Virus record (IMG/VR): IMGVR_UViG_3300027710_000111 | Coordinates: 1-27,426 of that record | Length of the DNA: 27,426 nucleotides | Strand: one strand, 5' to 3' | DNA from: a virus | Shown here: one piece after another, positions 2 through 19,089 of the stretch | Position numbering within the stretch: the stretch's first letter is position 1 | Layout of the letters: each line of letters opens with the position of its first letter | The notes under the pieces: generated by a model | The model's input: only the letters and a program-made list of their open reading frames with translations | Database searches by the model: none | What the model was told of the DNA's origin: nothing | Made by a program: the position numbers and the translations under genes

Positions 2-2200
2 CGTGAACAGGGCTATCTGGCTGCTCCGTTTGGTTTTGAAAAGCTCGATACCAAGTTGAAAGCCGCAATCAGTAGTTCTGGCATGAAACCAGATTCAGTC
101 GCCAACACGTTCACGAAGCACAGAGTCACTGGCGATGCGCTGCTCGTAGAGTTTGCGACCTTCTTGAAAAAGGTGGGTGCAGAAAATGCCGACGCTCTTC
201 TCGCCTGCCTGCCGAAGGTGGATGCGCTACCCGACCCCAAAGACGATAAGCTGTGGCTGGCGATTGCTGGCGTGTTTGTCGGACATGCGTTTGACGACTC
301 CACTCTGCGCGCTAAGGGCCTAAAGGCGCTGCCGAAGGAACTTAGGAACGACAAGATTAGTCGGGCGGGTGTGGGTGCCCTCACTCTGCGTCGCAAACAA
401 GCGAGCGTGATGGCCGTTACCTTCATGCTGCATCGCTTGCTTGCAGGATTGCTGTTCTTCTCTAAGAAAGCCAAGTGGAAGGGTGAAGACAAACTCTTTG
501 TGGATCGTTTGGTTAACGCCTACGCCACTATCTTGGTTTCGGTATCTGCCTCCGCACAGGCCAAGAACCTGTACCCAGCTCTCGCAATGGTGCAGGTATT
601 CTTCTTGCAGAGTAAGGCGGCTGATGCCATGCTTGCTGCCGATGGAATCACCGCGAAGTTCTCTGCGCTGATCAAGCCTTACGTTGCAGTGCCGTCCGTA
701 CGTTCTCTCTACGCAGCCGCTCCGGTATCCACTCGTAAAGCGAAAGCAGCCGCCGCAGCATTCACTGTAGAGAAACCTGTTCGACTGACGGCAGCCAAGT
801 TGCCTGAAATGACCAACGGCAACCTCGCATGGATGCTCGCGAACGATCCTGAGAAGCTGTTGAAGCTGTACGGCGACAATCCGCAGTTTGATTTGGACTT
901 CGCGGCCTTGCGTGCTCCTGAAATGGCACCGCTCGTTAAATTCCTTGCCACGTCTCCCGAGTATCTGCGTAACGTCCCCGAGGACTTGCACGACCTGCTT
1001 GTTAAACGCTGGCGATTGCCTGAACTCAAGACTGCCGATTTCGTGAAAGCCTATAGCGGGATTTCAAAAGTCGGATTGGAAGAGATTGCTCGCATTGCTG
1101 CGTTGAGCAGCGTGTCGAACAAAGCAATCAGCCCGTTAGTTCCTAAGCTGACGAAAGAAGCCTCGCAGTATCTTGTTCTGCAATTGGTGGCGAATTCCGC
1201 CAACGCGACCAAAGGCGCGTTCGGTAAAATCCAAAGCGAGCACGCAAAGTTCAATGGCTTGAAGACGAACAAGGTTGTCGCATCCGATTTGCGCGCTACT
1301 GATATTGAAGTCGTACGTGGGGTGTTTAAAGAAGCCCAGAAATCGGTAGCTGATGAACTGCTGAACTCCGGCTACGGGGCCAAAGACATTGACGATTTCA
1401 CGGCGCGCGTCAAAGCAGCTTATGCCGCCATCAAAGAGAACGGCGGCAAGCTGAAAGTAGCAAGTCGCAGAATCACCCCCGCCGACCTCGATCTGGTTGA
1501 AGCGCAAATGTCACTCGGCCACGGGATCACCGCCGTCCGAATAGACAAAGCATTTAACGTGACGTCAAAAGCAAAAGAACCGACCGACGCACACAAAGTT
1601 GCGGAGACCGTCTGGCACGGCACTGATATATCGGCTGCATCTTGCATTGCGCTGACAGGGTTTAAGGTGACGAGTGCCAACGTAAAAGCTGGTCGTTCTA
1701 TGGGGTCAGTTGTTTACGTCGCGCCGAACGCTGATAAGTCTATGCAGTACCTCGGCAGCAAATTCACACGCAACGGTACTGGCATACTCTTCAACGGCCC
1801 CGCGTATTTGAAAGGTGCCGCGCGTGAGCGAATTAACGGTCGTGCGGGCTCCTATGACTGGACGCACACTGGCAGATTCTCGTCGGAAGAGATTGGTTTG
1901 GCGAACGCGAACTTGCAATTCGACATTGAGCGCGCATACTCTGTTACGGTATGCTCACGCCTACCGAACCTCACGACTCGCAGCCCACTTGTGGAGGTTC
2001 GTAAGGTCGCAAGTCTGGCTATGATGCGACTTGCGACTGCTTCAAAAATCCGCACCGCGCAGATGGCTATCAGCAAGGCCAAGACTGTCAACGCAGTTGT
2101 TGAAGTATTGCGTGGCTATGACGTGGTGTTGGTTTTGGGCAAGCCTGATGACGCGCCGCGCAAAGCGAATCGTAAGTTCAAGATTAAGGTAGTACGCTAA
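2..2200 (+). CDS. Large protein with C-terminal PARP-like ADP-ribosyltransferase domain (5' end outside window)
   Basis: The frame is open from the first bases of the window to TAA at 2198-2200, so the gene starts upstream; a TTG at 56 lies in frame but is probably internal. About 730 residues are visible. The first two thirds are helical and Ala/Lys/Leu-rich and match no family I recognise. The last third has the order of motifs expected for a PARP/Tpt1-type ADP-ribosyltransferase: VWHGTD (His codon at 1616), then a Gly-rich stretch and SVVYVAP (Tyr codon at 1715) with KSMQYL behind it, then SSEEIGL (Glu codons 1886 and 1889). This fits an H-Y-E triad, which in known PARPs binds NAD+ and transfers ADP-ribose. 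The exact catalytic Glu is uncertain; a second candidate is in FDIERAY (codon at 1928). The target cannot be read from sequence. The next gene follows after 18 bases with a good ribosome site, so it is the first visible member of an operon that contains a second ART-like gene. Confidence 0.6.
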   Translation, partial: REQGYLAAPFGFEKLDTKLKAAISSSGMKPDSVANTFTKHRVTGDALLVEFATFLKKVGAENADALLACLPKVDALPDPKDDKLWLAIAGVFVGHAFDDSTLRAKGLKALPKELRNDKISRAGVGALTLRRKQASVMAVTFMLHRLLAGLLFFSKKAKWKGEDKLFVDRLVNAYATILVSVSASAQAKNLYPALAMVQVFFLQSKAADAMLAADGITAKFSALIKPYVAVPSVRSLYAAAPVSTRKAKAAAAAFTVEKPVRLTAAKLPEMTNGNLAWMLANDPEKLLKLYGDNPQFDLDFAALRAPEMAPLVKFLATSPEYLRNVPEDLHDLLVKRWRLPELKTADFVKAYSGISKVGLEEIARIAALSSVSNKAISPLVPKLTKEASQYLVLQLVANSANATKGAFGKIQSEHAKFNGLKTNKVVASDLRATDIEVVRGVFKEAQKSVADELLNSGYGAKDIDDFTARVKAAYAAIKENGGKLKVASRRITPADLDLVEAQMSLGHGITAVRIDKAFNVTSKAKEPTDAHKVAETVWHGTDISAASCIALTGFKVTSANVKAGRSMGSVVYVAPNADKSMQYLGSKFTRNGTGILFNGPAYLKGAARERINGRAGSYDWTHTGRFSSEEIGLANANLQFDIERAYSVTVCSRLPNLTTRSPLVEVRKVASLAMMRLATASKIRTAQMAISKAKTVNAVVEVLRGYDVVLVLGKPDDAPRKANRKFKIKVVR

Positions 2201-7062: not shown

Positions 7063-7663
7063 CCCTAACGAAATCCCCAACACCCGCGACTCCATGCGCG
7101 TACTCGGAACCTCGCTGGACTATGCAGCGGTTTCTGATGACGTAGTTGGTGAGCTGTCGCGCTTCGTGGACTCGCATCGCCATGCCGACATTATTCCGGT
7201 GATTCAAGCGTTCGTCGGAATCTTCCCGCGCTATCACTTCCAACGCATCGTGCTGGATCGCATCAACTCCTGTTTGGAGAATCGCACCAGTGCGCGGGGT
7301 GCGTGGCGTACGCGCGCCTACATGCGGCAGCCGCCGGAACGCGCCGCTGATCCTGTCGCGGTATTGGAAGAAGTTTCTAAAACCGATAGCGAGTTCTATT
7401 CGCTCTACGTTCGTTACCGCAAAGGTGTGTCCGCAGTAGTGCGTGACAGTTTGTGGTGGCGTCGGGATTTCGGCTCCATAAAGACGCGCCTCGCGGTGCT
7501 CACATCTTACGTGTGGGCAGTGAAGGGCGTCGTGATGCAATTCGAAGGTACGTTCAATCCCGATGGAAGTCCGCAAGAGATCTTCCTTGTGGTCGGTGAC
7601 AAACGTACAACCATTTATCTATCAGTGCTTGATGCCTACACTCCGAAGGGAGAACAAAAGTGA
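7052..7663 (+). CDS. Unknown protein, 203 aa, distant paralogue of the preceding gene
   Basis: ATG 7052 lies eleven bases inside the preceding gene with GAGGG a few bases upstream. The protein has no motif I can assign. It shares with its upstream neighbour a central YRKG segment and a C-terminal GTFNPDGSPQEIFLVVGD strand region. The N-terminal half is predicted helical (VVGELSRFVDSHRH; VIQAFVGIFPRYHF). The stop codon TGA overlaps the GTG start of the HAD gene (GTGA), so these genes are expressed as one unit. A fold-level comparison of the pair would be the quickest route to a function. Confidence 0.75.
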   Translation: MIIDPNEIPNTRDSMRVLGTSLDYAAVSDDVVGELSRFVDSHRHADIIPVIQAFVGIFPRYHFQRIVLDRINSCLENRTSARGAWRTRAYMRQPPERAADPVAVLEEVSKTDSEFYSLYVRYRKGVSAVVRDSLWWRRDFGSIKTRLAVLTSYVWAVKGVVMQFEGTFNPDGSPQEIFLVVGDKRTTIYLSVLDAYTPKGEQK

Positions 7664-8403
7664 TCTTGAAAAATCCTGTACCGTTTTATTTTGATGCCGA
7701 CGACACCCTGCTCGATACTCGCGGCTGGTTCATCAAGCAAGCGTGGGACAACGGCACCTCTGTGCATCCGTCGTCGCTGCGTCTTCATCCCGAGTTGTCG
7801 CTTCCTGAGCATATGTTGAAGCGTGAAATCCAAAACGGGTTCCTCGAAAGCGCCGAATTCATGGATCAAACTGCACTGCTGCCTTATGCCAAGCACACGT
7901 TGCTTGCGTTGATGGCTATCGGTGTTCCGGTCGAAATCGTAACGCATCGCGGCTACCATCCGAAGGGCAAAGAGCTGACTGAAAACCTGCTCGCGCAGTA
8001 TGGACTCTCCAACGTGAAAGTCCATGCCGTGCCGACCTCGGTGTGCAAACTCAAGTTCTGCGATGAGCTGACTGGCGGCAAACCGTTCGTGCTGTTCGAC
8101 GACAACTACGATGCACGCAAACCGCAATACGAAAAGATTGGCAGCCCGCTGTACGACCAACTGTATTGCGTAACGCAACCGTGGAACATCAACCCGCCCG
8201 AAGCGTTTGGTGCAATTCGCGACAAGTGCGTGGCACGTCTGGCGGTCGAGGCGCTGATCAACTTCTGCGGCGTCGCCACTGTCAATGCCGCCGAGTTGCT
8301 TGGCTCCATCAAAGCTGACGCAACTCCTGCTGAACATGCGGCGCACGCTGCCCGTGAGTTCTACATTTCGGCTGCCTTGCGCGGCCATACCACTTGCCGA
8401 TAG
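7660..8403 (+). CDS. HAD-superfamily phosphatase, possibly a 5'(3')-nucleotidase, 247 aa
   Basis: The GTG start at 7660 overlaps the upstream stop (GTGA) and has GAAGGGAGA upstream. All HAD motifs are visible: motif I DADDTLLD with nucleophile Asp12 and acid/base Asp14, motif II Thr95 in VTHRGYH, a motif III Lys candidate at 130 or 132, and motif IV FDDN with Asp147/Asp148. HAD enzymes of this size with a helical cap between motifs I and II (residues 20-80) hydrolyse small phosphorylated molecules. The THR-type motif II and short Asp-Asp motif IV recall 5'(3')-deoxyribonucleotidases, though substrate choice cannot be read. It lies directly before the HD/PDE-like gene, so both may work on nucleotides. 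The C-terminal 60 residues are an Ala-rich extension. Confidence 0.8.
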   Translation: MILKNPVPFYFDADDTLLDTRGWFIKQAWDNGTSVHPSSLRLHPELSLPEHMLKREIQNGFLESAEFMDQTALLPYAKHTLLALMAIGVPVEIVTHRGYHPKGKELTENLLAQYGLSNVKVHAVPTSVCKLKFCDELTGGKPFVLFDDNYDARKPQYEKIGSPLYDQLYCVTQPWNINPPEAFGAIRDKCVARLAVEALINFCGVATVNAAELLGSIKADATPAEHAAHAAREFYISAALRGHTTCR

Positions 8404-8413
8404 CGAGGCCACT

Positions 8414-9400
8414 ATGCTGAATGCTTCCAAGGTACTGATTCTAACCAGCGTCGCTAATCGCGTTGCTGACAAGATCATCGAGCACAAACTTTACGGTGAC
8501 GCTCACCCGATGTTTGACTCTCCGATCTTTGAACTTCCGGTGGATGACTTCGCGGCAACCGCGCTGCGCAGTGGCGAACATCTGCAAGATGTTTATTACG
8601 AGGCGGTTCACAACATGCTGCATCCGCTGATCGGTGTCGCTGCCACGTCTGCCGCCATTGATTGCCTGCTGTCCGCTTCGGCCAAGTCAACGCTGTATCC
8701 GAACCACAATCGTATGTATCACAGTACGTACCACTGCATTGAAGTTGCGGAATTCGTGCGTGCGCTGGCGTACGAATACGGTGGCCCCGAAGACGACGGT
8801 GATCGTTTGGCGGTGATGCTGGCTGCGCTGTTCCACGATTACGAGCACTCGCTCGGTGCCACAAGCGACACTGAAAACGTGATGCGTGCGCAGCGTGCCG
8901 TGGACATGTTCCTGCCGCTGATTCTCGGGCTGTCAGATCGTCCGGAGTTCGCAACCGACAAGTTCATTGAGTTGACTTTGTTGCGTGCGAAGGCGGCAAT
9001 CGAGTTGACTGTCTTCGAAGGCGGCGCGTTCAAGTATCGTTTGCCGCTGTCGTCGCATGACAGTATGTGGCCGATGTATTCGACCGTGGGCTACGGCATT
9101 CAGTTGGGTGATTGGATGCGCGCTTACGGTGTGCTGTTGGCGCAGGCTGATGCGTCAATGGTGCTGGCTCCCACTTGGGGACACATGGCATTCCGTCTGG
9201 TTTACGAAATGCTGGCGAACACCAACTCGAAGTACAATCCCGCGCTCAATCAGATGGCGACCTTCAAGACGTATCTGGATGCGCAGGTGAGCTTCATGTT
9301 CAACCCGCATACAATCTCGCGCGTGCCGCCTTCGTTTGCCGAAGAGTATACCGAGTTGTCCGCGCGTCACTCATTCGTTCACGGAGAACTGATCGCATGA
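8414..9400 (+). CDS. HD-domain metal phosphohydrolase resembling class I cyclic-nucleotide phosphodiesterases, 328 aa
   Basis: ATG 8414 has GCGAGG five bases upstream; a longer frame starting at 8285 would overlap the HAD gene heavily and is unlikely. Motifs fit a metal-dependent HD enzyme with the layout of class I PDEs: YHSTYHCIEV with His103 and His107, then ALFHDYEHSLGATSDTEN with His141-Asp142 and His145, then LLAQADAS with Asp246. In PDEs the equivalents are YHNxxHAxDV, HDxxHxGxxN and a later metal-binding Asp, and they hydrolyse cAMP or cGMP at a two-metal site. The catalytic His would be 103. The surrounding sequence is divergent and the regulatory domains of eukaryotic PDEs are absent. 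A substrate of cyclic (oligo)nucleotides is an inference; a general nucleotidase is the main alternative. The stop overlaps the next start (ATGA). Confidence 0.75.
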   Translation: MLNASKVLILTSVANRVADKIIEHKLYGDAHPMFDSPIFELPVDDFAATALRSGEHLQDVYYEAVHNMLHPLIGVAATSAAIDCLLSASAKSTLYPNHNRMYHSTYHCIEVAEFVRALAYEYGGPEDDGDRLAVMLAALFHDYEHSLGATSDTENVMRAQRAVDMFLPLILGLSDRPEFATDKFIELTLLRAKAAIELTVFEGGAFKYRLPLSSHDSMWPMYSTVGYGIQLGDWMRAYGVLLAQADASMVLAPTWGHMAFRLVYEMLANTNSKYNPALNQMATFKTYLDAQVSFMFNPHTISRVPPSFAEEYTELSARHSFVHGELIA

Positions 9401-9750: not shown

Positions 9751-11223
9751 GTGAACGAAATTCATGAAATGATCCGCGCCGCTAATATTCTGTTGAACGA
9801 CCTCTTCGACAACAACCAATTTCTGATTGCCACTGTTGTCGGTGCTGCTTCGGTACTCGTAGGCTACCTGCTGCGAACTCTGCCGATGAAGATTGGACGG
9901 TTCATCTTCAACCAGAGCATTACGCAGATGCGCGTAACCAATGCCGGATGGAACAACATGCGCACGTTCGTCAACCTGTCGCGCTACCTGCATGAGCATT
10001 GTGATAGACGTTTGACGCGCCGCTACAGCGCCGAGACCCAGTACGACTATGACGAAGGTGAGCACATAACTCATCTTGCTATCGGCATGGGATGGCACCG
10101 CGTCAGATTCGAAGGGCGTTCGCTGTTTGTTCACCGCGCAGAAATGCCGGACAACCACGCCGACTCGATCAAAGAGAGCATTGAGATTTACGCGCTCGGT
10201 CGCTCCAACGGAATCTTCGCTCGCCTGCTCGAACAGTGCAAACCCGCGAAGGCCAAGGGCGTGCAGTTCCATGAATGGGATACGAAAGCCGGAGAGTGGC
10301 GCGCAGTCAGTTCACTCAAAGGTCGCGGTCTCGATTCGCTGGCACTGGACAGAGACGTTCGTGATCTCTTGGTTCGTGAATTCACCACGTTCCTTGAAGA
10401 GCGCGAAACAATTCTGTCGATGGGTCTGCCTCACAAGTTCACTGCAATCCTGCACGGGATTCCGGGTTCAGGTAAGACGTCGATACTGCGCGCGTTGGCT
10501 GTTGACTTCGAGTTGAACTTGTTCAGTATCAACCTCGGGTCACTGCTTACCGTCACCGAGTTGAGCAAAGCGTTGAATAACGTTTCGCAGCGTTCGCTTG
10601 TCGTGATGGAAGACTTCGACGATTCTCCGTGGGTTAAGAGCCGTGGCAACATGGACACCATTCACAAGAAGCCGAAGTCTGACGACAGTGAGCAACTGGT
10701 GAATGAGGACGAGGCTAAGAGATCGCGTGAGTTTGAAATGTTGTCGTTCCTGACTTCCGATGGCCAGAGTGCATTCTTCAACTTGCTGGATGGCATCGCG
10801 CCGTTGGATAACGTTATGATCTTCATGACCACCAACAAAGCGCTCGACCTCGACCGCGCACTGATTCGTCCCGGCCGTATTGATTGCGTGATCGACATTC
10901 CGCCTCCGTCGCAGGATGCCGTGCGTGACCACTTGCTTACCGTGTGGCCGGAACTCAATCAGCGTGACGATATGGTGTGGGGTAGCCTCCCCGGTTGCAT
11001 TCTCTACAAGATAAAACGCATCGCGTTGAAAGATGCAGAGAAAGCTGCCGAGCTGATCAACTACTACGGCATGAATCCGGATAAAGCAGTTGATGAGCAG
11101 AACGGCGAACTTGCACAACTTGACCGTCTGCGCCAGATTCGCAAAGAACTTCTCGATGCGGAAGCTGACAAGAAGGAAGAAACGCTGGATGAAGTTGCCC
11201 CTGCGGCATCTAAAGCTGCGTAA
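9751..11223 (+). CDS. Membrane-anchored BCS1-like AAA ATPase, 490 aa
   Basis: The GTG start at 9751 has GGAG eight bases back. Residues 24-41 (FLIATVVGAASVLVGYLL) are one transmembrane helix near the N terminus, as in mitochondrial BCS1. Residues 45-215 match the length of the BCS1-specific middle domain, and the AAA core follows: Walker A GIPGSGKTS at 236-244, Walker B VVMEDFDD with Asp286 region and Glu287/Asp288, sensor 1 Asn362 in MTTN, and arginine fingers in RPGR at 373-376. The segment DRDVRDLLVREFTTFLEERE before Walker A is like the BCS1 core entry. An insert of about 40 charged residues follows Walker B. BCS1 moves folded proteins across a membrane; a phage relative may remodel or translocate a protein at the host inner membrane. 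It is the last gene before a terminator. Confidence 0.85.
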   Translation: MNEIHEMIRAANILLNDLFDNNQFLIATVVGAASVLVGYLLRTLPMKIGRFIFNQSITQMRVTNAGWNNMRTFVNLSRYLHEHCDRRLTRRYSAETQYDYDEGEHITHLAIGMGWHRVRFEGRSLFVHRAEMPDNHADSIKESIEIYALGRSNGIFARLLEQCKPAKAKGVQFHEWDTKAGEWRAVSSLKGRGLDSLALDRDVRDLLVREFTTFLEERETILSMGLPHKFTAILHGIPGSGKTSILRALAVDFELNLFSINLGSLLTVTELSKALNNVSQRSLVVMEDFDDSPWVKSRGNMDTIHKKPKSDDSEQLVNEDEAKRSREFEMLSFLTSDGQSAFFNLLDGIAPLDNVMIFMTTNKALDLDRALIRPGRIDCVIDIPPPSQDAVRDHLLTVWPELNQRDDMVWGSLPGCILYKIKRIALKDAEKAAELINYYGMNPDKAVDEQNGELAQLDRLRQIRKELLDAEADKKEETLDEVAPAASKAA

Positions 11224-13878: not shown

Positions 13879-13890
13879 AGAGGTTTGTTC

Positions 13891-14523
13891 ATGGAACTCA
13901 AGCTGGAGAAATTCATCAATAGCTTGGAGATCACTACGAACATTCACCGCCAACACGAAGCCCCCATCATCGTTCGCGTAACCCGTGACGATGATGGGTC
14001 GGCCCACGTCGTTTGCTGTTCGTACTTCAAGCCGCGTTATATCCTGCTCCCCATTCAGGCCATCTGGATCGACTTCAACCCCGAGTCCGAAACTTTCCGT
14101 CATGCGTACCTGCGCACCAAGAAAGGCAAGACTCCCGACGAAGACGTGTGGAAGGTTCTGTACTTCTACGCCGATGCGTTCCCTGTTCAAGAGTACGACC
14201 CTGCGGACATTGAGTTGATTTCGATCACTCTGCCGCCGCCCGCAACTACTGCGGTGCAAGGTATCGGCTACCTGTCCACGGCCAACGCAGACTCGCGCGC
14301 TATCATCGAAGGCCACGAAGCACTCACCGACAACCGCGACCCGCTCGACCACACTCACAAAGAGAAGCCTGCTACTCTGGTGCGTGACGGTAACGGCGTG
14401 GCGGTGCCGATTGCTTCACAGCCGAACCCGCGACTGTTTCAGGCGCTCGTTGCTGACGCTGACCCCGATGGTAAGGTGACTTACTCTTGGCGTCGTGTCA
14501 AAGAACAAGATCTGGGGGTATGA
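13891..14523 (+). CDS. Probable virion protein, 210 aa, first of three tandem paralogues
   Basis: ATG 13891 has AAAGAGG seven bases upstream; a TTG at 13885 in frame is less likely. The central region VVCCSYFKPRY ... AIWIDFNPESETFRHAYLRT ... VWKVLYFYADAF ... EYDP aligns with the same region in the next two genes, which read VLWLDTN and VLWLVMNP. A later DNRDPLDHTHKEKP corresponds to the PHDEMH and PNPHDHP segments of its neighbours; such Asp/Arg/His-rich segments are common in phage tail fibre and baseplate proteins. It lies directly behind the sheath. A tail tube or baseplate-attached role is possible but not shown. The stop overlaps an ATG at 14520. Confidence 0.8.
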   Translation: MELKLEKFINSLEITTNIHRQHEAPIIVRVTRDDDGSAHVVCCSYFKPRYILLPIQAIWIDFNPESETFRHAYLRTKKGKTPDEDVWKVLYFYADAFPVQEYDPADIELISITLPPPATTAVQGIGYLSTANADSRAIIEGHEALTDNRDPLDHTHKEKPATLVRDGNGVAVPIASQPNPRLFQALVADADPDGKVTYSWRRVKEQDLGV

Positions 14524-14525
14524 CC

Positions 14526-15146
14526 ATGATGGAGAGCGAACAAATCCGTCAGATGGCCGATGCCATTATCGACGTTACTGGTTTTGTGGAAGGCGGCCCC
14601 GCCAAGATCTACAAACACTACAACGCCGTACTCGGCCAGTCGATCATCATCTACGTGTCGAACGACGAGCCTACTCGCGTTCTTCCGTTGAACGTTCTGT
14701 GGCTGGATACCAACCGCGACCGTAGCACGTACAAGCAATTCGTGCGCCGTGTTGCCAAGGTTCCCAGCAACGGTTTCCGCAACACTTGGGAACTCGTTAC
14801 CGAATTCATGCGCCTGTTCGTCGCGCAGTCTTACGATCCGCAAGATGGCACCCCTGGTGTTGGCGACGTCGGTATCGCAACCAAAGACACTGCGGGCCTC
14901 GCGAAACTCACGACCGATGCCAAGCCGATCACCGCACCGCGCTTTGTTGCAGTCGATGACCCGCGCCTGAAAGACAAACGTCAACCACTGCCGCACGACG
15001 AAATGCACGTCGAGAAGCCGCTGGTCGATGTAATCGGCGTCGTGAACATGGCGAACGGTACTCCCGCGCAGGGCGGCACTTTCGTCGCTGAGTCGAGCGA
15101 GTTGGCGCAACAGCGCAAGCTCAAGAAATCCGAAGTAACGGGGTGA
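14526..15146 (+). CDS. Probable virion protein, 206 aa, second of three tandem paralogues
   Basis: Start chosen at ATG 14526, seven bases after GGGGG; ATG 14520 overlaps the previous stop but is too near that site, and ATG 14529 is also possible. Residues 35-105 (SIIIYVSNDEPTRV, NVLWLDTNRD, FVRRVAKV, NTWELVTEF, SYDP) align with the preceding and following genes. The later segment DDPRLKDKRQPLPHDEMHVE is of the type seen in fibre or baseplate proteins. The last 30 residues are charged (ELAQQRKLKKSEVTG). It is a single copy of the module with no added domains. A structural role in the tail is inferred from its position and its fusion partner downstream. Confidence 0.8.
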   Translation: MMESEQIRQMADAIIDVTGFVEGGPAKIYKHYNAVLGQSIIIYVSNDEPTRVLPLNVLWLDTNRDRSTYKQFVRRVAKVPSNGFRNTWELVTEFMRLFVAQSYDPQDGTPGVGDVGIATKDTAGLAKLTTDAKPITAPRFVAVDDPRLKDKRQPLPHDEMHVEKPLVDVIGVVNMANGTPAQGGTFVAESSELAQQRKLKKSEVTG

Positions 15147-15150
15147 TGCA

Positions 15151-18100
15151 ATGACTCTTCTCGAAGCTACCATCATTCGCTTGTTCAACACTGCGATTCG
15201 TCGCGGTTGCAATCCGGCAAGTCCGGTGCGCCTTGAACTCGTCGAGAGTGAGCAAGAAGATTCTCGCAAGTTTGTCGTGGTGTGCTCCTACACCGAACCG
15301 ACTTTCAGCGAGATTCCGTATAACGTTCTGTGGCTGGTGATGAACCCGGGTTCTCTCGACCACAAACACATCTACCGCCGTGTGAGCCATATCACCGACG
15401 GCAAGTTCCGTGGCACATGGGAACTGATCACCGCGCAAGAGCAACTGTTCGCAGTCGATCAATACTATCGCCCTGTTGTAGAAACTCCGGCTGACCTCGG
15501 TCTGGACGTGAGTGATCTGACCGTGCCGCACGCCACCTTGAGCGTGATGGGTATCGTGTTGCTGGATGAAGATGAAGCCGACGGTTTGGTGGTAAGTGAC
15601 ACCGACCCGCGCATGTCTGACCCGCGCTATCCGAACCCGCACGACCATCCTGATTATCCGCGCTCGATGATCAAGATCAACGACAGTGCTTACGCGATTC
15701 TCGAAGGCAACTCGCCGAAAGCGGGCGACACGCTTTACCTGACGCGCGCCCACCCCACCGACCGCAATGCGTTTTTCGCACGCTGGGGTAAACTGAGCCC
15801 GTCCGACGTTGAATGGGCTTCTGCTCGTTTGGAGCGTCTGGTTATCAGTCTTCCGGGGAACGCCGCATTCATGGAGCACAACAGCTCTATGGATCTCATC
15901 GGTACTGCGATTTGGACTGACCGCACCGAAGTAGACCCCGCAGGTTTGTCGTGGGAGATTGAAGCCAACGCCATCGGTGTCACCATCGATCCGGCGACTG
16001 GTGTTGTCACTGCTCCGAAACTGCAAGCCGACGTCGATTTGCTGGTGACTGTTTCAATGCGCGATCCGGTGTTCGACGTTATCGTCAAGGGCACCTACAC
16101 TCTGCGCATCGTCTACGTGAAGCAGGAAGCGCAACTGACCTCTATCGAGATCACTGGCGCAACCGACATGCTCCCGGGGACTTCCACCACGTTCGGCGTT
16201 GTTGGTGTTTACGATGATGGCTCTCGCGTCGCAATCGTGCCCGATACTTTCGTTTCCGGTACTCCGGCAGCGCTCGGCCTGAATGGTTACGTCGGCACCG
16301 CCAAACGTGTTCCGCAAGACACTATGGTAACGCTGACCGCTACCAAGGGCGCGCTCTCTGACACGCACGAAGTTCGCATTCGCAAGTTCGTTCCGGTGTC
16401 GCTGGATATTCGTGGCCCTGCGATTGTCGATGAGCACACCGAAGGCACTTACACCGTCCACGTTTCTTACAACGACGGCACGACTGAACAAGTCACTCCG
16501 CTGACCTTCACCATCGACAACCAGCACGCCACCATCAACGGCATGAAGGTAGCCGCTGGTGAAGTTGCTACCGACGAAGCTGCAAAACTTTCTGCATCCT
16601 TCGAGGCGTCCGGCGTAACTGTCAACGCGCAGAAATCTATCACTCTGCGTAACGTCAGCAACCCGCCGACCAAGCGTCCGCAAAGCCTGAACATCATCGG
16701 CCCCGCTACCGTCAACGAGAAGACCTCGCAACAGTACGCCGTGAAAGTGGTGTACGACGATGGCTCTATCGAAGACGTGAAGCCGGAAGAGATCACTTCA
16801 TGGACTGCGCTGGTCGGTACAATCACCGCAACTGGTTTGTTCACTGCGCCTGACGTGACCATCGACACCCTGACCAAGCTGACTGTCAATGCGACTGTCG
16901 CAGGTTATCCGCTGACGAAAGCGATGGACGTCACCATCAAAGCCGAAGTGCTGCCGACTGGTCTGATTGTTTCCGGTGCTGCGTCGCTGATGGAAAACAC
17001 TTCGCAACAGTACACCGTCAAAGTTCAATTCTCCGATGGCACCAGCCGCGCGCTGAATGCTGGTGAGTTGACTGGCTGGACTGTTAGCGGCACGGGTCAC
17101 ACGATCAGCGCAAGTGGTTTGCTGGCCGCTGGTGAAGTCGCTGCGGATACCACGGTTGCGGTCACTGCCAAGGCAACTGTGCAGAGTATCGCACTGACTG
17201 GCAAGATGGACGTGCTGGTGCGCAACGTGTTCGTGAACGAGCCGAGCTACATCGTTATCACTGGCCCGACTACCGTCAACGAAAACACCGACACCCAGTT
17301 CCAAGCTGACGTTTACTATCTCGACGGCGCAGTGCGCAGTGTCGCGCTCGGTGAAATGAAGTCGTGGACTGTGAGCGGTTTCGGAAGCATGACCGTTCAA
17401 GGTATGCTCAAGGCGGGCTCTGTTACCGCTGACAGCCCCGTGACCATCACACTTGCCGTTCTCATCGACGGCAAGACCCTGACCGACACGCACAACGTAA
17501 CGATCAAAGACATTCCGGCACCTACGCCGAGTCACATCGTTATCACTGGCGCGACTTCCGTCAACGAGGGCAGCACTTCGCAGTTCCAAGCTGACGTGTA
17601 CTTCACCGACGGCACTGTGCGCGCGATCATCCCTGCTGAAATGACGCAGTGGTCGGTCGATGCGAACGGCACTATCGACGCCACTGGCCGCTTTACTGCT
17701 GCCTCGGTTACTGGTGATCAGCCTGCGGTGCTGACGTTGAAGGCGACGGTCGATGGCAAGGTCATGACTGACACGCACAATCTCACGGTTAAGGACTCCA
17801 ACCCGTCTGTGTTGAACGCGCTCATCAAGGGCACCACTCCAATCAACGAAAACACTTCGTCTTCGTATACCGCTGTACTGCGCCTGTCGAACAACACCGA
17901 AGTTGCGCCGACCAAGTACATCAAGTGGGAAGTTCTTTCCGGTGTGGGTTCGTTCGCTGATCCGCTGATCGGTACTCTGGTCGTGCCGAAGGTCATGGCG
18001 ACTCAAATCACCAAGATCAAAGTCACGGTCGAATACAACGGCACGCAGTACAGCTCGACGCTCGACGTCACTGTCACCAACTTGAGTAACATCATGTCGA

Positions 18101-19089
18101 TGGCGCTCGTTGGCCCCGCTTCGATCAACGAAGGTCTGAACGCGACTTACAAAATGGTTGCGACGATGGAAGACGGCACCACTGCCGATTTCACCACGCC
18201 AACTCTGTCGTTCGTTCAAGCAACTTCCGCCGCCACTATCAGCGGCCAGAAAGTTACCGCTGCACAAGTTAGCGCGGACACCACTGTCAAGTTGCGCGGC
18301 ACCGTTTCCGCAGAAGGGAAATCGTGGACTGCCGACCTCGACGTAGTTATCAAGAATATTCCGGTAACGCTGTCGAGCATTGCAATCAGCGGCCCGACCA
18401 CCGTCGAAGAGAAGAAGACTGGTAACTACACCTGTCTGGCGACCATGAGCGACGGAAGCACGAAGAACGTGACTCCTTCGTGGTCAATTCAATCGGCTGG
18501 CGGCCTGACTGGTCTCGCGATCAGTTCAAGCGGCGTGTTGACCACTGTCGAAGTAACTGCGAACACCGTTATCACGCTGGCCGCAACTTACTCCGAAGGT
18601 GGCGTGTCGAAAACCGCAACCTATGCGGTGACGATCACCAACGTTGCAGCACCTCCCGCAGGCGGTGTGAAGTTCGGTATCCGCCGTCAAGTTGCGAGCT
18701 TGGCAGAAATGTCGAGTCAGGCTTTCCTCGATAGCTTGACCACTACACTGTCCGGTAACAACGGCGACCGCGTGACTATTCCCGCGAACTCCACGACTGG
18801 CGACTCCGACAATCCGGCAGCGACTCGCGCCTATGTGGCATGGCCGAAAGCAACTCACGGCTGGGGCTACTTCCGAACCTTCGACCCGCAAACTGGTCAA
18901 TACGGTTTCGAAGGATCGTGGGATGGTGCGCTGGATATTCTGGGCGGTTACGTGTTCGATGGCCCTGCCGAAGTCACCATCGGCGGCGTGCCTTATGTCG
19001 TGTATCGTACCGACTGGCCGTTCGACCAAATGCCGTACATCTATGAGATCTCATACAACTCCACGGACAAACGTTCTGGTATCAAGTAA
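15151..19089 (+). CDS. Giant tail fibre/adhesin-like protein: paralogue module, about ten Ig-like repeats and a C-terminal tip domain, 1312 aa
   Basis: ATG 15151 follows GGGGTGA. Residues 1-170 are the third copy of the module shared with the two preceding genes (NVLWLVMNPG, IYRRV, GTWELITAQ), closing with DPRYPNPHDHPDYPR. From about residue 230 to 1165 come about ten Ig-like (bacterial Ig, BIG2-like) repeats starting near residues 230, 329, 416, 511, 603, 699, 794, 889, 982 and 1075, each with a phrase like ITGPTTVNE followed by a YxxDG turn; the period is about 90-96 residues. Residues 1171-1312 form a different domain (FGIRRQVASLAEM ... FEGSWDGAL ... YRTDWPFDQMPY) suited to a receptor-binding tip. 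The whole reads as an extended fibre: base, stalk, tip. A C-terminal enzyme is not seen. Similar Ig-bearing phage proteins act in host adsorption. Confidence 0.85.
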   Translation: MTLLEATIIRLFNTAIRRGCNPASPVRLELVESEQEDSRKFVVVCSYTEPTFSEIPYNVLWLVMNPGSLDHKHIYRRVSHITDGKFRGTWELITAQEQLFAVDQYYRPVVETPADLGLDVSDLTVPHATLSVMGIVLLDEDEADGLVVSDTDPRMSDPRYPNPHDHPDYPRSMIKINDSAYAILEGNSPKAGDTLYLTRAHPTDRNAFFARWGKLSPSDVEWASARLERLVISLPGNAAFMEHNSSMDLIGTAIWTDRTEVDPAGLSWEIEANAIGVTIDPATGVVTAPKLQADVDLLVTVSMRDPVFDVIVKGTYTLRIVYVKQEAQLTSIEITGATDMLPGTSTTFGVVGVYDDGSRVAIVPDTFVSGTPAALGLNGYVGTAKRVPQDTMVTLTATKGALSDTHEVRIRKFVPVSLDIRGPAIVDEHTEGTYTVHVSYNDGTTEQVTPLTFTIDNQHATINGMKVAAGEVATDEAAKLSASFEASGVTVNAQKSITLRNVSNPPTKRPQSLNIIGPATVNEKTSQQYAVKVVYDDGSIEDVKPEEITSWTALVGTITATGLFTAPDVTIDTLTKLTVNATVAGYPLTKAMDVTIKAEVLPTGLIVSGAASLMENTSQQYTVKVQFSDGTSRALNAGELTGWTVSGTGHTISASGLLAAGEVAADTTVAVTAKATVQSIALTGKMDVLVRNVFVNEPSYIVITGPTTVNENTDTQFQADVYYLDGAVRSVALGEMKSWTVSGFGSMTVQGMLKAGSVTADSPVTITLAVLIDGKTLTDTHNVTIKDIPAPTPSHIVITGATSVNEGSTSQFQADVYFTDGTVRAIIPAEMTQWSVDANGTIDATGRFTAASVTGDQPAVLTLKATVDGKVMTDTHNLTVKDSNPSVLNALIKGTTPINENTSSSYTAVLRLSNNTEVAPTKYIKWEVLSGVGSFADPLIGTLVVPKVMATQITKIKVTVEYNGTQYSSTLDVTVTNLSNIMSMALVGPASINEGLNATYKMVATMEDGTTADFTTPTLSFVQATSAATISGQKVTAAQVSADTTVKLRGTVSAEGKSWTADLDVVIKNIPVTLSSIAISGPTTVEEKKTGNYTCLATMSDGSTKNVTPSWSIQSAGGLTGLAISSSGVLTTVEVTANTVITLAATYSEGGVSKTATYAVTITNVAAPPAGGVKFGIRRQVASLAEMSSQAFLDSLTTTLSGNNGDRVTIPANSTTGDSDNPAATRAYVAWPKATHGWGYFRTFDPQTGQYGFEGSWDGALDILGGYVFDGPAEVTIGGVPYVVYRTDWPFDQMPYIYEISYNSTDKRSGIK
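17251..17815 (+). repeat. Direct repeats of Ig-like units 6 and 7 within the fibre gene, period 285 bases
   Basis: ATCGTTATCACTGGC at 17251 recurs at 17536, exactly 285 bases (95 codons) later. Both are followed by highly similar DNA (CGTCAACGA..., then CAGTTCCAAGCTGACGT). The nucleotide match is closer than among the other Ig units, which points to a recent duplication or ongoing recombination. Confidence 0.85.

Follow-up and report, generated by a model that had tools for sequence, protein, structure and literature searches.

The class I phosphodiesterase (PDE) fold is known mainly from eukaryotes, and its human members destroy cyclic AMP and cyclic GMP. In phages, the removal of cyclic nucleotide signals is proven for Apyc1, which has a metallo-beta-lactamase fold, and for Acb1. 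The latter shows the 2H fold (PMC9117128). In jumbo phages, several phosphodiesterase groups (HD-GYP, HD-alarmone, DHH, calcineurin-like and 2H) have been predicted to counteract nucleotide signals (Iyer et al. 2021; PMC7824862), and a 2026 review (PMC13282480) restates this role as potential. The HD families named in the text of Iyer et al. (PMC7824862) are the HD-GYP and alarmone enzymes; class I PDE is not among them, and in the open-access literature no paper naming phage class I PDE-like enzymes was found.

The protein described here is encoded in a 27,426-base virus fragment, hereafter the window, and has in common with the enzymes of Iyer et al. the HD superfamily, the occurrence in jumbo phages and the proposed role. 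Its likeness to Acb1 and Apyc1 is limited to the proposed outcome, the removal of cyclic nucleotide signals, which is a prediction in this case; their folds are unrelated to that of the window protein. The novelty lies in a sharper, predicted fold assignment for an already annotated phosphohydrolase family, the counter-signal idea itself having been published in 2021 as a prediction. The class I PDE-like assignment supplies a concrete list of substrates and of active-site mutants for testing.

Gene Organization and Genomic Context

The gene starts with the ATG at 8414 and its stop codon ends at 9400; a longer alternative, from an ATG at 8285, falls within the upstream HAD-like gene. The two genes are arranged as follows:

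7660..8403, + strand: HAD-like hydrolase gene, directly upstream of the HD gene (phrog_16292, 1.7e-8; Pfam Hydrolase, 0.004)
8414..9400, + strand: HD phosphohydrolase gene (P0001), predicted to be class I PDE-like, product of 328 aa (translation, Pfam, phrog_16069 and fold match)

Only 10 nt separate the stop of the HAD-like gene from the ATG of the HD gene, and the two are probably co-transcribed. A two-step pathway joining the HD and HAD enzymes was considered and rejected because the pair is not kept in relatives, the HAD homologues of Erwinia phages being located more than 50 kb away from the HD gene. On the other side are virion genes, and the surroundings include a BCS1-like AAA ATPase, a lysozyme-like endolysin, the tail sheath protein and tail genes. 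The window is a fragment of a jumbo myophage; in particular, its 1,312-aa tail protein has 33–34% identity to listed Erwinia, Dickeya and Pseudomonas jumbo myophages.

DNA similar to the window is absent from the annotated phage collection. The sole near-identical locus is one other contig (L002), which differs at 9 bases over 16.4 kb and encodes a 100% identical copy of the HD protein, so that a selection test had nothing to measure. An anti-defence reading of the neighbourhood was also set aside: the neighbourhood comparison found no conserved neighbours around the family genes except among close relatives, and a PADLOC search for defence genes gave no match.

Family Membership and Distribution

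The window protein matches the phrog_16069 profile with an E value of 5.3e-12 over residues 97–167 and is, on its sequence, a very divergent member of this family, whose proteins carry annotations such as phosphohydrolase, HD protein and hypothetical. Members include Lu11_0281, PaBG gp57, BcepSaruman_221, Erwinia Y3_303, Noxifer gp269 and a protein of FBKp24; others occur in BcepSauron, in Klebsiella and Aeromonas jumbo phages and, by tblastn, in Lak phages. The family signature reads PYH[NS]xxH, HDxxHSGG, DxxN, T[EQ][FY], RDAD, E and QxxF, and the order YH[NS]xxH, HDxxH, DxxN, T, DAD, E, QxxF is shared by the window protein. Identity to the members is just 17–26%. Compared with them, the window protein is extended at its N-terminus, contains about 35 inserted residues and reads QAD where they have RDAD.

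A search of 50,697 phage records at E 1e-3 gave 95 with the family, those listed being all jumbo phages, over which it is scattered without fixed neighbours, a pattern often seen for accessory genes. Relatives were gathered from IMG/VR and from bacterial genomes, mostly labelled Patescibacteria-type; a tRNA nucleotidyltransferase-like protein with an HD domain (L039) and a fragment (L068) were excluded from the family set. The cellular members (L051–L067), of about 225 aa, come from Patescibacteria-type genomes and one Sulfuricella contig; they share the family motifs and QxxF with the window protein, unlike which they are cellular and more PDE-like in sequence. One speculative reading is that this branch goes back to an ancient root of the class I PDEs in prokaryotes. 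In a 287-genome sample of the phylum of one member (L059), its own genome was the only one to encode a family protein; a class I PDE search of 398 genomes from the phylum of another (L053) gave no match, but its controls were equally without a match.

Other members show additional domains. An HD–guanylate kinase fusion is encoded in two other phage contigs (L036:2523-3650 and L037:4953-6077; Guanylate_kin, 3.4e-15). The P-loop of its kinase seems degenerate (ARAASRKD) and the GMP-binding segment seems intact; the fusion gene is flanked by a DNA ligase gene upstream and a gp30.3-like gene downstream. Members of the Erwinia phage Y3 type (L009:7842-8783 and L040:5001-5939) are longer by about 90 residues at the C-terminus, and this additional part has no Pfam match.

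Metal Motifs and Conserved Residues

The conserved elements of the window protein, with the number of the 45 aligned family members in which they are kept, are the following:

8717..8734, + strand: YHxxxH motif, Y102 to H107 (Y102 H103 S T Y H107); 45/45
8834..8857, + strand: HDxxHxxG motif, H141 to G148 (H141 D142 Y E H145 S L G148), HD pair predicted to bind metal and third His
8867..8878, + strand: D152xxN155 family motif, right after the HDxxH loop; D152 44/45, N155 42/45
9008..9010, + strand: T199, aligned to the Thr of the PDE "ATDMS" segment in the global alignment of the family to PDE4D; 45/45
9029..9133, + strand: insertion of about 35 residues (about 206–240), absent from compact relatives in the alignment and partly of low confidence in the model
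9149..9151, + strand: D246, candidate fourth metal ligand at the position of PDE D318; 45/45 at the RDAD position, with support from the spacing to E265
9206..9208, + strand: E265, conserved helix Glu downstream of the Asp; 43/45
9284..9295, + strand: Q291-V-S-F294, aligned to the position of the purine-selective Gln and clamp Phe of PDEs (alignment to PDE4D SQVGF)

Y102, H103 and H107 are identical in all 45 rows, as are H141 and D142, and H145 is found in 43. The alignment places H103 at the catalytic His and H107 at a metal ligand of the PDEs, the family YHxxxH corresponding to YHNNIH of the PDE4D chain 5wh5_A, HDxxH to HDVDHPG and RDAD to HCADLS. Translation of the window in all six frames gives the YHxxxH..HDxxHxxG pattern a single time. 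The combination of motifs is not due to chance, because the pattern is absent from 8.2 million shuffled residues and its residues are nearly invariant across the 45 relatives.

The metal Asp is most likely D246, judging from the alignments. Alignment A1 and the 45-row alignment both set it on the Asp of the family RDAD, and it is preferred over D233 because its distance to E265 agrees with that in the family (19 residues, as compared with 20 between D150 and E170 of the relative L019) and because it has a DAD-like context, QAD. D233 was rejected: it is placed on RDAD by alignment A4 only, and its distance from E265, 32 residues, does not fit. The first-pass annotation had proposed both the YHxxxH and HDxxHxxG motifs and a later metal-binding Asp; translation, shuffling and conservation in the 45 members bear out the motifs, and D246 stands as the best candidate for the Asp.

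QAD in place of RDAD is the sole such case among the 45 rows. It could denote a divergent, perhaps inactive copy that has lost the first Asp of RDAD and serves another role; in the maximum-likelihood tree the window protein is in fact the longest branch, without a well supported partner, and its gene is placed between the HAD gene and the virion genes, in the vicinity of lysozyme, tail sheath and tail genes. However, none of the four metal ligand positions has been lost, the two other His residues and the Q/F pair are retained as well, and PDE4D likewise has CAD at the position of the family DAD, so that loss of activity is considered very improbable.

At the QxxF site a Gln is found in 26 of the 45 aligned members and an aromatic residue, F or Y, in all of them; the homologues of PaBG and Noxifer read GQLKF and GQSAF, and other relatives have R, N, T, H or E instead of Gln.

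Predicted Structures

The all-helical catalytic fold of class I PDEs was found in the predicted models of both the window protein and a compact relative (L017). The AlphaFold model of the former has a mean pLDDT of 65, D246 being within a low-confidence stretch, and superposes on PDE9A (VIA: Z 19.3, rmsd 3.5, 255 residues), with a best Foldseek E value of 1e-3. The model of the relative reaches a pLDDT of 90 and matches class I PDEs with a Foldseek E value of 1.6e-4 and a VIA Z of 17.6 over 207 residues, the next VIA match having Z 17.3 over 216 of 235 residues. In both cases all 50 PDB entries among the matches listed are class I PDEs, a uniformity to be read with the consideration that AlphaFold may lean towards a fold very common in the PDB. 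YedJ-type chains are absent among the 50 fold matches listed, but may match further down the ranking. In BFVD the best matches are other phage proteins of this type, including those of PaBG, phiRSL1, FBKp24 and Dickeya phages.

Comparison with PDEs and Other HD Phosphohydrolases

In Pfam the window protein matches HD (1.7e-4) and PDEase_I (PF00233; 3.5e-3), the latter with 17.5 bits, under the gathering score of 24.8 bits. Matches to PF00233 extend to the family: seven of the ten phage members show one (best 3e-5), as do all 15 Patescibacteria-type members (best 3.1e-9), and the bacterial relatives L059, L051 and L064 exceed its cut-off. A PDB search with the single window sequence returned class I PDEs in 9 of 10 matches, all weak (PDE1B, E 0.066). 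The profile of the bacterial relatives gave class I PDEs for all of its best 60 matches (best E 1e-8), and that of the phage members gave level scores for 2pq7 (1.5e-8), PDE10A (1.8e-8) and 3b57 (2.7e-8), the first and the last of which are YedJ-type.

YedJ-type HD phosphohydrolases (E. coli YedJ, 2pq7 and 3b57) share with the family HxxxH, HD, DAD and the overall order. For the direct comparison, YedJ was taken from an E. coli genome record, and the PDE4D sequence was identical to chain 5wh5_A over 262 residues. The alignment of the family profile to YedJ takes in the DAD motif and spans 133 columns, a longer stretch than with PDE4D. HxxxH, HD and AD are common to the family, YedJ and PDE4D; the metal motifs alone are thus weak evidence for a PDE, because a distinct family has HxxxH, HD and Asp as well. 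HDxxH, the Thr and QxxF instead coincide in the alignment with PDE4D only, since the YedJ-type enzymes have HDIVS in place of HDxxH and lack counterparts of the family Thr and of QxxF.

These likenesses give weight to the main rival explanation, housekeeping of the nucleotide pool, in which a (d)NMP phosphatase or (d)NTP hydrolase would tune the DNA precursors of the phage and the resemblance to PDEs would reflect shared HD ancestry. The long YedJ alignment and the matches of the phage profile to 2pq7 and 3b57 speak in its favour, as do the neighbours of relatives, which include genes for DNA polymerase, dUTPase, dCTP deaminase, NUDIX hydrolase, exonuclease and DNA ligase; the guanylate kinase fusion would also suit nucleotide salvage. 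It is a possible though unlikely reading in view of HDIVS and the missing Q/F pair in YedJ, of the fold matches listed, which are all PDEs, and of the YfbR profile (PF12917), which matches one of 10 phage members only, at 0.064. The window protein itself shows no match to this profile at E 1, and a YfbR-type 5'-deoxynucleotidase was therefore discarded. A (p)ppGpp hydrolase of the SpoT/MESH1 type was excluded as well, the window protein having HDYEH and not HDxxED.

The window protein resembles the class I PDEs (PDE9A, PDE10A, PDE2A and PDE4D; PF00233) in the predicted fold of the whole domain, in the HxxxH/HD/D metal ligands, in the third His, in the Thr and in a candidate Gln/Phe pair, with an identity of 10–21%. 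The metal ligand positions H107, H141, D142 and D246 and the catalytic His, H103, are all present in the alignment. Q291 and F294 have the same spacing as Gln369 and Phe372 of PDE4D, whose contacts have been described (PMC11311937), and are aligned with them at the family level, the Gln being variable in relatives. The class I resemblance pointed out in the first-pass annotation is thus upheld by the metal motifs, the PF00233 scores, the fold matches and a QxxF pair like that of the purine pocket; a closer match to YfbR, which that annotation had set against its own proposal, was not found in the Pfam comparison.

The resemblance is not complete. Eight strictly conserved pocket residues of PDEs have been defined (PMC5617230) and six of them are matched in the family. 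The two that are missing are Glu230 of PDE4D and the pocket His that follows it: the family has shortened, by about 20 residues, the loop downstream of HDxxH, which in PDE4D carries Glu230 and HH. Moreover, the window protein does not match PROSITE PS00126 (H-D-[LIVMFY]-x-H-x-[AG]-x(2)-[NQ]-x-[LIVMFY]), as its HDYEHSLGAT has L at the [AG] place and no N/Q at the set distance. Because the pocket residues and PS00126 are incomplete, the sequence and the model qualify the protein as class I PDE-like and not as a class I PDE proper.

Proposed Activity and Role

Family, predicted fold and conserved residues are established by sequence and by predicted structure, and from them we infer the metals, the chemistry, the substrate and the role during infection. 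The window protein would belong to the metal-dependent phosphodiesterases of the HD superfamily, with a catalytic domain that shares the architecture of class I 3',5'-cyclic nucleotide PDEs. H107, H141, D142 and D246 would coordinate a pair of divalent metals, Q291 and F294 would bind the purine base, and H103 would donate a proton to the departing 3'-oxygen; the ring of a cyclic purine mononucleotide, or of some other small cyclic nucleotide, would thereby be cleaved to give the 5'-monophosphate. That the protein acts as a phosphodiesterase on a cyclic nucleotide is given a probability of roughly 0.5 on the basis of the sequence comparisons and models. The HD–guanylate kinase fusion hints at GMP as the product, and fits nucleotide salvage equally well.

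The shortened loops might also open the pocket for larger rings, in which case the substrate would be a cyclic di- or oligonucleotide of CBASS, type III CRISPR or c-di-NMP signalling. HD-GYP enzymes cleave such rings and their use by jumbo phages was predicted by Iyer et al. (PMC7824862), and the family has no PDE loop after HDxxH; however, the fold matches are mononucleotide PDEs and the HD-GYP motif HHExxDGxGYP is absent from the translation of the window protein, which led to the rejection of the HD-GYP reading and makes these larger substrates improbable.

If a small cyclic nucleotide is the substrate, the enzyme would deplete a cyclic-nucleotide signal of the infected host cell, one that plausibly serves defence or stress responses. 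The first-pass annotation had named CBASS and Pycsar as systems that such an enzyme could disarm; among the relatives, however, the gene shows no conserved linkage with anti-defence genes, and its surroundings are as compatible with nucleotide metabolism as with signalling. Because neighbours are not conserved and several belong to regions of DNA or nucleotide metabolism, a counter-defence role is advanced as a tentative suggestion. The wider proposal, that jumbo phages use a compact branch of the class I PDE fold against host cyclic mononucleotides (cAMP, cGMP, cCMP, cUMP) or small cyclic signals, as a third phage counter-signalling fold besides those of Acb1 and Apyc1, appears doubtful on the present comparisons and models.

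Other Features of the Window

Three further features of the window are reported:

2..2200, + strand: open-ended ORF of 732 aa with a sub-threshold match to the PARP catalytic domain at residues about 517–587 (about 1550–1762; E 8e-4, 19.4 bits vs 26.7)
9751..11223, + strand: BCS1-like AAA ATPase (AAA, 5.8e-14; BCS1_N, 2.1e-6)
13885..19089, + strand: three genes in a row, all matching phrog_13325 and phrog_14098

The product of the first is possibly an ADP-ribosyltransferase. Homologues of the BCS1-like ATPase are found in phiKZ-like and other jumbo phages, and the arrangement of the three genes at 13885..19089 suggests the tandem duplication of a tail protein gene.
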